Shown here piece after piece: positions 31,180-52,596 of a DNA stretch of 62,299 nucleotides. The stretch comes from Candidatus Omnitrophica bacterium CG08_land_8_20_14_0_20_41_16. GTDB taxonomy: Bacteria > Omnitrophota > Gorgyraeia > Gygaellales > Profunditerraquicolaceae. The position numbers were made by a program, and so were the translations under genes. How positions within the stretch are numbered: position 1 is the first letter of the stretch; every line of letters begins with the position of its first letter. The stretch spans positions 1 through 62,299 of the forward strand of contig PEYI01000042.1 in NCBI GenBank assembly GCA_002774445.1, written 5' to 3'. Below the pieces are notes generated by a model. The model was not told the origin of the DNA. It made no database searches and worked only from the letters and a program-made list of their open reading frames with translations.

Positions 31180-32244
31180 TTAAGTAATTCTCCTTAAGTA
31201 ATTTTTATAATTCTCTTTAATGTCTCCCAGGGAATCCGAGCCAAATTTCTCCAACATTGCATCGGCTAAGACATAAGCGCAGCTAGACTCAGCCACAACC
31301 CCGGCAGCGCTAACTACACAAGTGTCCGAGCGCTCTACAGCCGCTTTGGAAGGCCGATTGGTCTTAATATTAACCGAATCCAACGGGTTCATCAAAGTAG
31401 ATATGGGCTTCATACAGGCGCGAATGACTAATTCCTCGCCGTTAGAGACCCCGCCTTCAATGCCGCCGGCATTATTAGTTTTACGGAAATATCTCTTAGG
31501 GACAATCCCCTGCGGGGACAGTCCCTTACCACGATAAATCGCATCATGCACCTCGGAACCGAAACTTACGGCATAGCCAAACCCTAAACCAATCTCCAGC
31601 GCCTTTATCCCGGGGATAGACATTACCGCCTGAGCAAGGCGTCCATCTAATCTTTCATCCGGCTGGACATAACTACCTAAACCCACAGGGAGGCCTTTAG
31701 CCCTAACTTCAAATATGCCTCCCACCGTATCCTTGAGCCTGATGGCTTCACTAATCTTATCTTTCATAGAACCAATGTTATTTTCTCCGCCAATAGATAA
31801 AACTCTGCTGGATATTTTTATCTTAAACTCCTCCAAGAATATTTTACATATTGCACCTATGCCTACGATTACTGCCGTATTCCTGGCTGAGGCACGCTCT
31901 AAAACATTTCTTATATCAGTAAATCCATATTTTAAAAGTCCGCTTAAATCCGCATGACCCGGACGCGGACAAATTACTTTAGGTAATCTCTCAATACTAA
32001 AATCCTTATTTCTAATCAATAAAGTGAGCGGACTTCCTAAGGTCTTATTATTTTTCAGCCCGGAAAATATTTCGGCGCGGTCATTTTCGATCTGCATACG
32101 CACTCCCCGGCCAAAACCCGCCTGCCTGCGTTTTAGTTCCTGATTGATTTTAGCTAAGTCTATCCTTAGCCCTGCCGACATACCCTCTAATATCGCTACC
32201 ATCGCCTTTCCGTGCGATTCACCCGCGGTTAGAAACCTTAACAT
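31180..32244 (-). CDS. aroC: Chorismate synthase
   Basis: AroC converts EPSP to chorismate using reduced FMN. The 354-residue protein has the signature runs TAGESHGKAMVAILEGMSAGL, RRQAGFGRGVRMQIE, RPGHADLSGLLKYG, RASARNTA, GSEVHDAIYRG and KTNNAGGIEGGVSNGE. Residues ~240-249 (GLSPQGIVP) replace the short loop usually found before FRKTNNAGG. They are encoded by a 27-bp palindrome, so an insertion has been tolerated beside the flavin site. The ribosome-binding site is AGGAGG. Confidence 0.95.
   Translation of the reverse strand: MLRFLTAGESHGKAMVAILEGMSAGLRIDLAKINQELKRRQAGFGRGVRMQIENDRAEIFSGLKNNKTLGSPLTLLIRNKDFSIERLPKVICPRPGHADLSGLLKYGFTDIRNVLERASARNTAVIVGIGAICKIFLEEFKIKISSRVLSIGGENNIGSMKDKISEAIRLKDTVGGIFEVRAKGLPVGLGSYVQPDERLDGRLAQAVMSIPGIKALEIGLGFGYAVSFGSEVHDAIYRGKGLSPQGIVPKRYFRKTNNAGGIEGGVSNGEELVIRACMKPISTLMNPLDSVNIKTNRPSKAAVERSDTCVVSAAGVVAESSCAYVLADAMLEKFGSDSLGDIKENYKNYLRRIT
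31499..31525. repeat. 27-bp in-frame palindrome in aroC
   Basis: GGGACAATCCCC, TGC, GGGGACAGTCCC: 12-3-12 architecture with two mismatches, nine codons long. An almost identical intergenic copy is at 52445-52471, and a half copy at 52044-52055. Confidence 0.8.
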
Positions 32245-32946: not shown

Positions 32947-34152
32947 TCATTCTACTATTTTTATTAGGTGAACTACCCGTTCCCTGTGAGGAAACAGGCT
33001 TCTTGGTTCATGGTTCAGTCTATTGAGCAAACTCCCCAAGCGTTGATTCCCGTAGTTCCTACGGTATTCTTCTATTCCAAGTTTTAGTATATTTATGGAC
33101 GCATTCTCATCTCTGTCCATATCTATACCACATTTACTACATTTGTGCCTTCTCACCCACAATGCCTTATGGACTATTTCGCCACATCCACTGCATATCT
33201 GTGATGTATTGCGCGGAGATACTGGCAGGGCATATTTGCCACACTCATCTGTTTTATACAGAAGTTTCTGGCAGAATCCGTTCCATGCCACATCACTGAT
33301 GCTCTTGGCTAAATAGCGATTCTTAACCATATTCTTTACCGCCAAGTCCTCGTAGGCAATCAGTTCATATTTATCAACTAATCTTCTACTTAACTTATGA
33401 GTAAAATCATTTCGTTGACTCCTTATCTTACAATGAATTTTTGCCACAATCTTTTTTTGTTTCTTTCTATTATTAGAATCTTTTTTCTTGCGTGATAGCC
33501 ATCGCTGTTGTCTGGCTAATTTTATTTCAGAATTTCTAAACCATCTTGGATTATCTATCTTTTCTCCGTTACTCAAAGTAGCAAATGAATCCAATCCCAA
33601 ATCAATACCAATAGCAGTTTTTATCGGCCTGTTTTCTATCTCTTTGTTTTTTATCTCCAAAGAAAAACAAGCATACCATTGATTTCCTTCTTTTATTATC
33701 AAACAAGTTTTAATTGTCCCTTTAATTGGTCTATGAAGTTTAATTTTAATATTGCCTATTTTAGAAAGATGAAGTTTATTACCTTTAATTTCAAAACCAG
33801 ATTGCGGGTAACAAATAGAGTTATAGGAATCTCTGCCTTTGAAATGCGGAAATCCCGCCTTTTGATGTTTTTCTATTCTGCCAAAAAATGCCTTAAAAGA
33901 TTTATCTAATCTTCTTAAAACATCTTGTTGTGTTTGAGAATGAACTGATTGATATTCAGGGAATGACTTCTTCAATTCTGGTAGTTGGTTTATCTGGTCA
34001 TAACAGGAGATAGATTTACGAGATTGTTTATATGCAAATATTTTCTGTTCTAATGCAATATTATATAGACGACGGCACAATTCAATATCCGAAAGTAGTT
34101 TCTGGAGCTGTTTTTTATTAAGATATATTCTATATTTAAAAGTTCTTGTCAT
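32947..34152 (-). CDS. tnpB: TnpB RNA-guided endonuclease (IS605 OrfB)
   Basis: This is a 401-residue TnpB starting at ATG 34152 (MTRTFKYRIYLNKKQ), overlapping the tnpA stop. The nuclease residues look intact: RuvC-I aspartate in IGIDLGLDSFATLS, RuvC-II glutamate in IAYEDLAVKNM, a four-cysteine zinc ribbon (CSGCG...CSKCG) and RuvC-III aspartate in DMDRDENASINIL. TnpB cuts DNA matching its guide and keeps the element at its donor site. The C-terminal residues after ERVVH are encoded outside the predicted element end. Confidence 0.92.
   Translation of the reverse strand: MTRTFKYRIYLNKKQLQKLLSDIELCRRLYNIALEQKIFAYKQSRKSISCYDQINQLPELKKSFPEYQSVHSQTQQDVLRRLDKSFKAFFGRIEKHQKAGFPHFKGRDSYNSICYPQSGFEIKGNKLHLSKIGNIKIKLHRPIKGTIKTCLIIKEGNQWYACFSLEIKNKEIENRPIKTAIGIDLGLDSFATLSNGEKIDNPRWFRNSEIKLARQQRWLSRKKKDSNNRKKQKKIVAKIHCKIRSQRNDFTHKLSRRLVDKYELIAYEDLAVKNMVKNRYLAKSISDVAWNGFCQKLLYKTDECGKYALPVSPRNTSQICSGCGEIVHKALWVRRHKCSKCGIDMDRDENASINILKLGIEEYRRNYGNQRLGSLLNRLNHEPRSLFPHRERVVHLIKIVE
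32976..32998 (-). other. Right-end hairpin of the IS, candidate 3' part of a TnpB guide RNA
   Basis: On the minus strand CCTGTTTCC and GGGAACGGG pair fully (with G-T pairs) over a 5-base loop inside the last codons of tnpB. They are followed by TAGTTCAC. In related elements this hairpin is used for strand transfer, and RNA from it forms the scaffold of the TnpB-bound guide. The guide would be the DNA just outside, from about 32967 downwards. Confidence 0.5.
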
Positions 34153-34544
34153 AGATTTTTTTGTTCTGCAATATATTTTCTTATTGTTTCTGATGTTACA
34201 GTTCCCGCAGAACCTATGAAATATGTGCGAGTCCACAATTCATCTTTTATTATTTTCTTTAACTGTAAGAATTCTTGTCTCATTTTTCTACTTGAATATC
34301 CTTTAATTATATTAACTATTTCTGAAGGAGACCACCTGGGCGGAGCTGAAATGAAAAGATGAATATGGTCAGGCATTATTTCTAATGCTAAAATAGAAAT
34401 ATTATTTCTTATACAAGACTCTCTTATTATCTCTCCTAATCTCAATTCCATTTGGCCAGTAAACAATTTTTTTCTATATTTAGGGATCCAGGCAATATGG
34501 TAATTTAGATTGTAAATACTGTATCTCGTTTTATTAACATTCAT
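34149..34544 (-). CDS. tnpA: IS200-type Y1 transposase TnpA
   Basis: The 131-residue HUH single-strand transposase has the HUH motif in MPDHIHLFISAPP and the catalytic tyrosine in the C-terminal helix (TIRKYIAEQ, about residue 124). The start YSIYNLNYHIAWIPKYRK is typical. It appears intact. A good -35/-10 pair lies so close to the ATG that the mRNA would be leaderless. Confidence 0.93.
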   Translation of the reverse strand: MNVNKTRYSIYNLNYHIAWIPKYRKKLFTGQMELRLGEIIRESCIRNNISILALEIMPDHIHLFISAPPRWSPSEIVNIIKGYSSRKMRQEFLQLKKIIKDELWTRTYFIGSAGTVTSETIRKYIAEQKNL

Positions 34545-51791: not shown

Positions 51792-52027
51792 AATGAATCT
51801 GGCGGATTTTCGAGCGAATGGAGCTTTTAGCCAGAGGACGCTTGAGCAAACGAGGGAATCTGAACGCGGAAGCATTCAGACGCCGAGCATGTTTGAGCCC
51901 ATCCTGGCGCGGAGCGCCGACGGGCGAGTTGCGCAGGCGCCGAGTTTGCGAAAGATCTCTGGCGTGCCCCTAAATCTTATCTTCGTGGGGCAAAAGCGAC
52001 CTGAGCGAGAAAACCGACAGATTCATT
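51792..52027 (+). ncRNA. Candidate structured RNA, copy 1
   Basis: This 236-nt unit is closed by complementary ends (AATGAATCTG and CAGATTCATT). Inside, GCAAAC (51846-51851) pairs with GTTTGC (51944-51949). A hairpin TCTGAA...TTCAGA (51859-51880) has a GGAA tetraloop. GGCGC-GGA-GCGCC (51906-51918) is another stem. Shared unpaired-looking blocks are TTTTAGCCA, GCTTGAG, GCGAGTT, GAAAGA and TGGCG. Stems differ from copy 2 but pair in the same places. GNRA loops occur only in plus-strand sense. Confidence 0.6.
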
Positions 52028-52043
52028 AAAAAGAACGACCTGA

Positions 52044-52055
52044 GGGACAGTCCCC
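52044..52055. repeat. GGGACAGTCCCC half palindrome
   Basis: A single 12-bp unit of the repeat seen in full at 52445-52471 and in aroC. It lies 17 bp after structured-RNA copy 1. Confidence 0.6.
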
Positions 52056-52157
52056 TATTGAGTTACGCTAAAAAATAATTCTACAACATAAATTGTTACA
52101 ACGGGTTACAGTATTTGCTGCCCCGTATGGACTCGAAAAACTAAATCCCATCTTAAA

Positions 52158-52387
52158 AATGAATCTGGCGTTTATGTGAGCGAATGAAGGTTTTAGCCAA
52201 AGCAGCTTGAGTATTTTCGGGTATCCCAAGGCCGTCCGAAAGGACGGCAATCTTGGGATGGCGATGCTGTCTGAGCGCCGAGGTAGAGACCGAGGCGCGA
52301 GTTCAGCAGCCACCGAAAATACGAAAGACCTTTGGCGTCCGCCGCAGGCGGAAAACCGACCTGAGCGAACAAAACGACAGATTCATT
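52158..52387 (+). ncRNA. Candidate structured RNA, copy 2
   Basis: This 230-nt unit has the same closing ends as copy 1 and the same tail AAAAAGAACGAC. Stems: TATTTTCGG (52212-52220) with CCGAAAATA (52313-52321); ATCCCAAG with CTTGGGAT; GCCGTCC-GAAA-GGACGGC; GCTG/CAGC, CTGA/TCAG and GCGCC/GGCGC stacked around a GAGG...CCGA element that could form tandem sheared G-A pairs; TCCGCC-GCA-GGCGGA near the 3' end. Many stem changes relative to copy 1 are compensated. Confidence 0.62.
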
Positions 52388-52444
52388 AAAAAGAACGACG
52401 AAAGATTTCAGCACGCGAGCAATATCCCAAAGAGCAAAATCTGA

Positions 52445-52471
52445 GGGACAGTCCCCTACGGGGACAGTCCC
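52445..52471. repeat. 27-bp GGGACAGTCCCC palindrome
   Basis: GGGACAGTCCCC, TAC, GGGGACAGTCCC: same 12-3-12 form as the aroC copy. The rest of the gap 51728-52574 holds the two RNA copies and the start of repeat E2; I see no protein gene in it. Confidence 0.75.
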
Positions 52472-52515: not shown

Positions 52516-52596
52516 TGGTATAGGAAAGTATAAAATACTTTCCTATACCACTGCGAAAATCTCTAGAAGTTATTTTACTTTTCCGAGATTTTCTTG
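52516..52596 (+). repeat. Family E repeat, copy 2
   Basis: It starts TGGTATAGGAAAGTATAAAA and contains the TACTTTCCTATACC arm and CTGCGAAAATC. It ends GATTTTCTTG. It overlaps the 3' end of the SPFH gene and supplies its last residues (KKISEK) and stop codon. Confidence 0.82.

Follow-up and report, generated by a model that had tools for sequence, protein, structure and literature searches.

The two similar units at 51792-52027 and 52158-52387 of the window (the whole 62,299-nt stretch of DNA analysed here, which is one contig, C91, of a 98-contig, 1.18-Mb assembly) are probably copies of a mobile DNA element, non-autonomous and MITE-like, of one Omnitrophota class, hereafter named family A. 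The element is about 184-275 bp long, non-protein-coding and bounded by a terminal inverted repeat. When single-stranded, its plus strand folds into one branched hairpin, closed by a terminal stem (P1), followed by a double tandem G-A site and a long stem, and topped by an apical domain whose two hairpins are exchangeable. It is dispersed in genome-specific bursts and lies almost only between genes, often within about 10 nt of the stop codon of an opposite-strand gene. We infer that an enzyme acting in trans recognises the folded single strand, probably as DNA, by its conserved G-A-rich base and moves the element. The apical hairpins would be passengers, their self-complementarity being kept by exchange, and resident copies would be passive, behaving as 3'-end spacers or as hairpins in host transcripts. 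For the Omnitrophota, which are uncultured and mostly ultra-small, this would be the first class-wide mobile structured repeat to be described; no earlier description of the element was found in the literature covered, most subscription papers and preprints lying beyond that coverage.

Two complete copies in the window

Both units lie where the original prediction had placed them, on the plus strand, and both are complete: copy 1 (51792-52027, 236 nt) and copy 2 (52158-52387, 230 nt) each align to positions 1-224 of the covariance model described below, with E-values of 1.9e-52 and 1.5e-62. They have in common the predicted ends, AATGAATCTG/CAGATTCATT, and the tail AAAAAGAACGAC. From sequence and folding, the arms of P1 are at 51792-51801 (AATGAATCTG) and 52018-52027 (CAGATTCATT) in copy 1, and at 52158-52167 and 52378-52387 in copy 2. 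The double tandem G-A site, assigned from sequence and family conservation, reads GA-GC-GA on both of its strands (51812-51817 and 52003-52008 in copy 1, 52178-52183 and 52363-52368 in copy 2). Further inside, as had been noticed, stem P4 is replaced with its pairing kept, GCAAAC (51846-51851) and GTTTGC (51944-51949) in copy 1 corresponding to TATTTTCGG (52212-52220) and CCGAAAATA (52313-52321) in copy 2. The surrounding 850-bp stretch contains no convincing genes. Its short frames do look like by-products: across the family, where nearly all full forms measure 184-275 nt, every remainder occurs when element lengths are divided by 3.

A family spread within one class of Omnitrophota

The element appears undescribed, as had been proposed, since neither unit matched any Rfam family at gathering or permissive thresholds. 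In the genome that the window comes from, BLASTN matched nine pieces. Beyond the window, two complete copies are on contig C90, one copy is on C66, one on C64 is cut by the contig end, and half a copy is on C63. On C2, an 86-nt miniature retains terminal stem P1 together with the G-A site, a single hairpin replacing everything above this base. Deletion derivatives, among which there is also a 112-nt form, preserve the base of the fold. A covariance model, R1, was built from five copies of this genome. It matched, mostly over the full length, in at least 61 of 117 related genomes, with up to at least nine copies per genome; these figures are minima, as scoring was limited to the best 19 candidates per genome. 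Under the same scoring no copy was detected in the other 56 relatives. In an even sample across the phylum, 80 of 384 genomes matched, and among the matches listed all belong to the window's own class. Scanning GTDB with the core motif returned Omnitrophota only (all 38 named relatives are Candidatus Omnitrophota), and the same scan of viral contigs gave 0 matches. The wider search that had been suggested, with a model from the window's genome, thus revealed a large family, and it confirmed the covariation.

A working set of 117 distinct elements, not to be confused with the 117 related genomes, was compiled. P1 is a terminal inverted repeat of 10 bp, perfect in 50 of 116 elements and present in 53 distinct versions of its 5' arm. 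Elements end in AATG..CATT, and the GTAG/CGTC tag is absent.

A conserved fold of the plus strand

Minimum free energies are -103 kcal/mol for copy 1 and -113 kcal/mol for copy 2, which adopt a common branched hairpin with different stem sequences. The plus strand outfolds its complement in all 6 own-genome copies. Across only five of these copies, in a raw MAFFT alignment, 26 of the 62 consensus pairs have changed on both sides; together with the further genome copies found by BLASTN, this excludes chance pairing. In two wider model-fitted sets, 96.2% and 94.6% of cells were paired and both-sided changes affected 44 and 51 of the 62 pairs. Such alignments are biased towards the structure, and the five-copy alignment serves as the raw counterweight. 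Covariation scores were 0.361 and 0.475, against 0.11 and 0.14 for shuffles and at most 0.08 when the structure was slid along the alignment; this comparison with shuffled and slid structures is a statistic other than R-scape.

The conserved sequence of the element is concentrated in internal sites, above all tandem G-A. At the base, C-GA...GA-G is found in 63 of the 117 elements, T-GA...GA-A in 9 and CC/GG in 3. The next stem carries TTGAG/CGAAAG in 59, TCGAG with GAGAGA in 21, and the Watson-Crick version TTTCG/CGAAAG in 5. At these sites both stem strands are conserved and the closing pairs covary, or else Watson-Crick pairs take their place. Because the sites are either kept or swapped in this way, we take the folded plus strand to be the conserved entity, whether as RNA or as single-stranded DNA. 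A possible tandem G-A element had been predicted; it exists, and it is not single, several being conserved across the family. The prediction of GNRA loops in plus-strand sense was right as to the sense, loops that would read as GNRA on the opposite strand being almost absent (1 case). As a hallmark of the family it did not hold: GNRA accounts for 22 of the 104 tetraloops, and the commonest loop is TAGA.

Signs of mobility and exchange of whole hairpins

The suggestion that the units are perhaps mobile is borne out by near-identical copies at unrelated loci, between which homology ends at the terminal stem. Three pairs of same-genome copies, 98.1%, 96.7% and 91.7% identical, have homology reaching respectively 0 and 0, 9 and 0, and 0 and -2 nt beyond their two ends. 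Flanks are unrelated except for other repeats. For 55 of 81 elements the nearest relative is in the same genome (3.0 expected). At the window site the element is absent from three congeners, one with an unrelated intergenic stretch and two with a different gene order. Two further loci have congeners without the element; among all the sites compared, intergenic sequence had diverged or was occupied by other repeats, and none was a clean empty site. In one set of larger repeats (loci L043, L044, L093 and L094, in genomes G090 and G037), the element sits inside a shell and is inverted in one copy.

No excess of target-site duplications of 2-9 bp was detected, except at exactly 4 bp without offset (7 versus 1.6). 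This argues against a classical transposase of the kind that makes duplications, and a single-strand mechanism would agree with it. The dinucleotide TA occurs at the left terminus of 39 of the 117 elements, at the right terminus of 25 and at both in 12, and GC content is 0.52 in the element versus 0.38 in its flanks.

Between near-identical copies of the same genome, the apical hairpins are exchanged wholesale, in modules that are each self-complementary. Since such swaps create covariation by themselves, covariation need not mean a selected RNA. The original prediction had read the covariation of the two copies as evidence of selected RNA structure: the covariation extends to the wider family, and alone it does not prove selection on RNA. 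For RNA discovery in general this is a warning, as whole-hairpin exchange can give overwhelming "covariation" and covariation alone is no proof of an RNA gene.

Wobble pairs

Analysed by a single pipeline in the same genomes, RNase P RNA had 7.6% G-U and 1.3% A-C cells, the element 1.45% G-U and 1.31% A-C. The GU/AC ratio is 6.05 for RNase P RNA and 1.1 for the pooled elements (0.65-1.9 in subsets of 30 sequences). In covariance-model alignments of the element it rises to 2.5 (2.0% GU versus 0.8% AC), and the terminal stem has 25 GU against 11 AC, indicating that wobble is not wholly disregarded. RNase P RNA was the only main control, with tRNAs as a side control, because a search for SRP RNA gave no match in the relatives: Rfam small-SRP RNA (RF00169) was found in 0 of 59 Omnitrophota genomes and in 11 of 14 control genomes. 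The SRP RNA of Omnitrophota may be of another type, or divergent. The G-U/A-C ratio and the hairpin-swap test could serve as simple and general discriminators between a mobile element and an RNA gene.

Position relative to genes

Family A is almost exclusively intergenic. At the 112 loci where both neighbours were called (by simple ORF calls), its plus strand is antisense to both of them in 69; the other loci comprise 23 where it is co-directional, 14 with divergent neighbours and 6 with convergent ones. The orientation bias, 69 versus 23, has p=1.7e-6. In 36 of 81 cases the stop codon of the opposite-strand gene is at most 10 nt from the 3' end of the element, or is formed at or inside it. 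Neither a promoter-like signal nor an enrichment in T-runs was found flanking the element. The orientation bias is undiminished out to the sixth gene on both sides, and long runs of same-strand genes account for this reach as well as replication does. Lagging-strand insertion, estimated from third-position strand skew, came out in the expected direction with a confidence interval that touches zero. The complement strand is stop-free across the whole element in 88 frames, versus 24 on the plus strand (117 elements), so that read-through in gene sense would be tolerated.

Different genera carry elements behind the same genes: a ruvB-like gene (6), one other gene (6), a Band_7 gene (4) and folD (3). 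Same-gene elements are hardly more alike than others, the same-gene partner being the best match in 26 of 58 cases versus 18.1 expected, an excess so weak that it lends little to vertical inheritance at shared sites. The recurrence would be compatible with hot spots, with exchange that homogenises copies and with selection at 3' ends. No partner gene was found beside the element, the 116 neighbour genes sampled being ordinary and diverse.

Candidate mobilising enzymes

None of the enzymes considered could be identified as the mobiliser. Y1 transposase is present in 90 of the 117 relatives, in 48 of 61 carriers and 42 of 56 non-carriers (p=0.67); in REP families, too, Y1 genes and repeats need not co-occur (PMC3733652). 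TnpB (5 of 117 relatives) and reverse transcriptase (24 of 117) are too rare to be the partner, and tyrosine recombinase, present in 113 of 117, is uninformative. About 0.9 Mb of loci yielded no autonomous version and no IS with the same ends. The window itself contains an IS605-type pair, TnpB at 32947-34236 and an IS200-like TnpA at 34149-34544, some 17 kb from the element copies.

Neighbouring repeats

Family A is accompanied by other hairpin repeats. Family B is a palindromic repeat of about 90-200 nt with ends TAGCGGGT / ACCCGCTAAA, and its stems, too, contain tandem G-A (CGAG/GAGAA). It immediately precedes many copies on their 5' side (loci L011, L013, L015, L030, L108, L110 and others), the two often being duplicated together. 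In several genomes the homology between copies continues 50-210 nt past the 5' side of the element into family B, hence families A and B also travel together. Family C is a hairpin containing '..GGCAAAAAATTTCAGCACGCGAACAA..'; at three loci (L072, L077 and L081) a complete C unit is joined to a 5' half of the element. In the window, only the 3' end of a C unit is present, at 52400-52441 on the plus strand, directly behind copy 2 and outside the element, as part of a nested repeat cluster.

The palindrome GGGACAGTCCC occurs four times in the window versus 0 expected (31515-31525, 52044-52054, 52445-52455 and 52461-52471), three times beside the two elements, and looks like a REP-type repeat. At 52516-52550, close to the 3' end of the Band_7 gene, lies an inverted repeat of 16 bp, TGGTATAGGAAAGTAT/ATACTTTCCTATACCA, which is perfect and has a 3-nt loop. 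In genome G109, two head-to-head elements are found within about 500 bp (about 1310-1815, loci L145 and L146), the two loci being 90.6% alike.

Alternative explanations

Several observations count against the mobile-element reading: recurrence behind the same genes across genera is unexplained by random insertion and could reflect 3'-end selection, no matching enzyme (Y1, TnpB or reverse transcriptase) was found, nor an autonomous version in the roughly 0.9 Mb of loci, nor a clean empty site among those compared, and GU exceeds AC on model alignments and in the terminal stem. Selection could act on a cis-acting 3'-end element, the complement of which, in the mRNA of the upstream gene, would stabilise, terminate or process the transcript, an effect reported for repeats of the REP, ERIC and Correia/NEMIS type, copies being selected behind stop codons and mobility being secondary. 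The orientation bias (69 versus 23, p=1.7e-6), the proximity or formation of stop codons (36/81) and the recurrence in different genera all speak for it, as do precedents such as QMITE2 in 3'-UTRs and the effects of ERIC on mRNA decay (PMC10969869). We consider it rather unlikely, given that same-gene elements are hardly more alike than others (26/58 versus 18.1), that no T-run follows the element and that the mRNA carries the strand opposite to the one in which the conserved G-A pairs are stable. If the family were instead a stand-alone or trans-acting RNA gene with its own promoter, selection on the folded RNA and often-duplicated paralogues, one would understand the very strong covariation, the conserved internal-loop sequence in one strand sense, the better fold of the plus strand in 6/6 own-genome copies and the class-wide distribution. 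This reading is only partly supported, and we judge it unlikely, because of the whole-hairpin swaps, the scarcity of G-U and the position antisense to both neighbours (69/112) without promoter or T-run enrichment; the element is also missing at orthologous sites and was not detected in 56/117 relatives.

A SINE-like retro-element, copied from RNA by a reverse transcriptase acting in trans, would fit the one-strand fold and the lack of target-site duplications. It is very improbable with G-U so scarce and reverse transcriptase in only 24/117 relatives (12/61 carriers, 12/56 non-carriers). The link to IS-associated guide RNAs of the omega/HEARO type, which the original prediction had proposed to check and which the TnpA/TnpB pair at 32.9-34.5 kb might evoke, is not supported and most improbable: there is no Rfam match, TnpB is present in only 5/117 relatives, the pair is about 17 kb away and the 116 sampled neighbour genes are ordinary. 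Returning to the mobile DNA element, a more specific version of it, which we put forward tentatively, is that of a folded-single-strand element with tandem G-A recognition and interchangeable hairpins, mobilised in trans by an Omnitrophota enzyme to the 3' ends of particular genes; together with families B and C, family A would then form a set of related, nested hairpin repeats.

Comparison with known systems

HEARO/OMEGA RNAs resemble family A as structured units of about 200 nt; they differ in that family A has no Rfam match and, in the TnpB search, no adjacent TnpB. Integron attC sites are imperfect palindromes of which a single strand folds, to be recognised in single-stranded form, and their tips vary. 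Family A may resemble them in its one-strand, imperfect-palindrome fold and variable tips, but no cassette or integron context was seen, and its sequence is unrelated as far as read.

The bacterial MITE-like small mobile repeats Correia/NEMIS, ERIC, RUP and QMITE are also short, non-coding, multi-copy and intergenic, with inverted-repeat ends and long stem-loops, and some small mobile repeats likewise favour the 3' ends of genes (PMC2229807, PMC10969869). Compared with these small mobile repeats, family A is larger (184-275 bp), has a GC content above its surroundings, lacks a clear target-site duplication and has no parental IS in the roughly 0.9 Mb of loci; it also has a branched fold, conserved tandem G-A, exchangeable hairpin modules and a class-wide range.

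With bacterial MITEs, family A shares terminal inverted repeats, the absence of a coded protein and dispersed near-identical copies. It exceeds their usual limit of about 200 bp and has neither their target-site duplication nor their A+T richness (GC 0.52 versus 0.38); as such duplications are in excess at exactly 4 bp only, we call it MITE-like rather than a classical MITE. REP/BIME sequences with RAYT (GTAG and CGTC families) are, like family A, palindromic and intergenic with one-strand features, and neither shows a strict correlation with Y1 genes (PMC3733652). REPs are 20-40 bp long with GTAG or CGTC tags (PMC3733652), whereas family A is about 230 nt long with untagged ends. As it departs from MITEs in target-site duplication and A+T richness, and from REPs in size and tags, we regard family A as a small mobile repeat that belongs to neither group.
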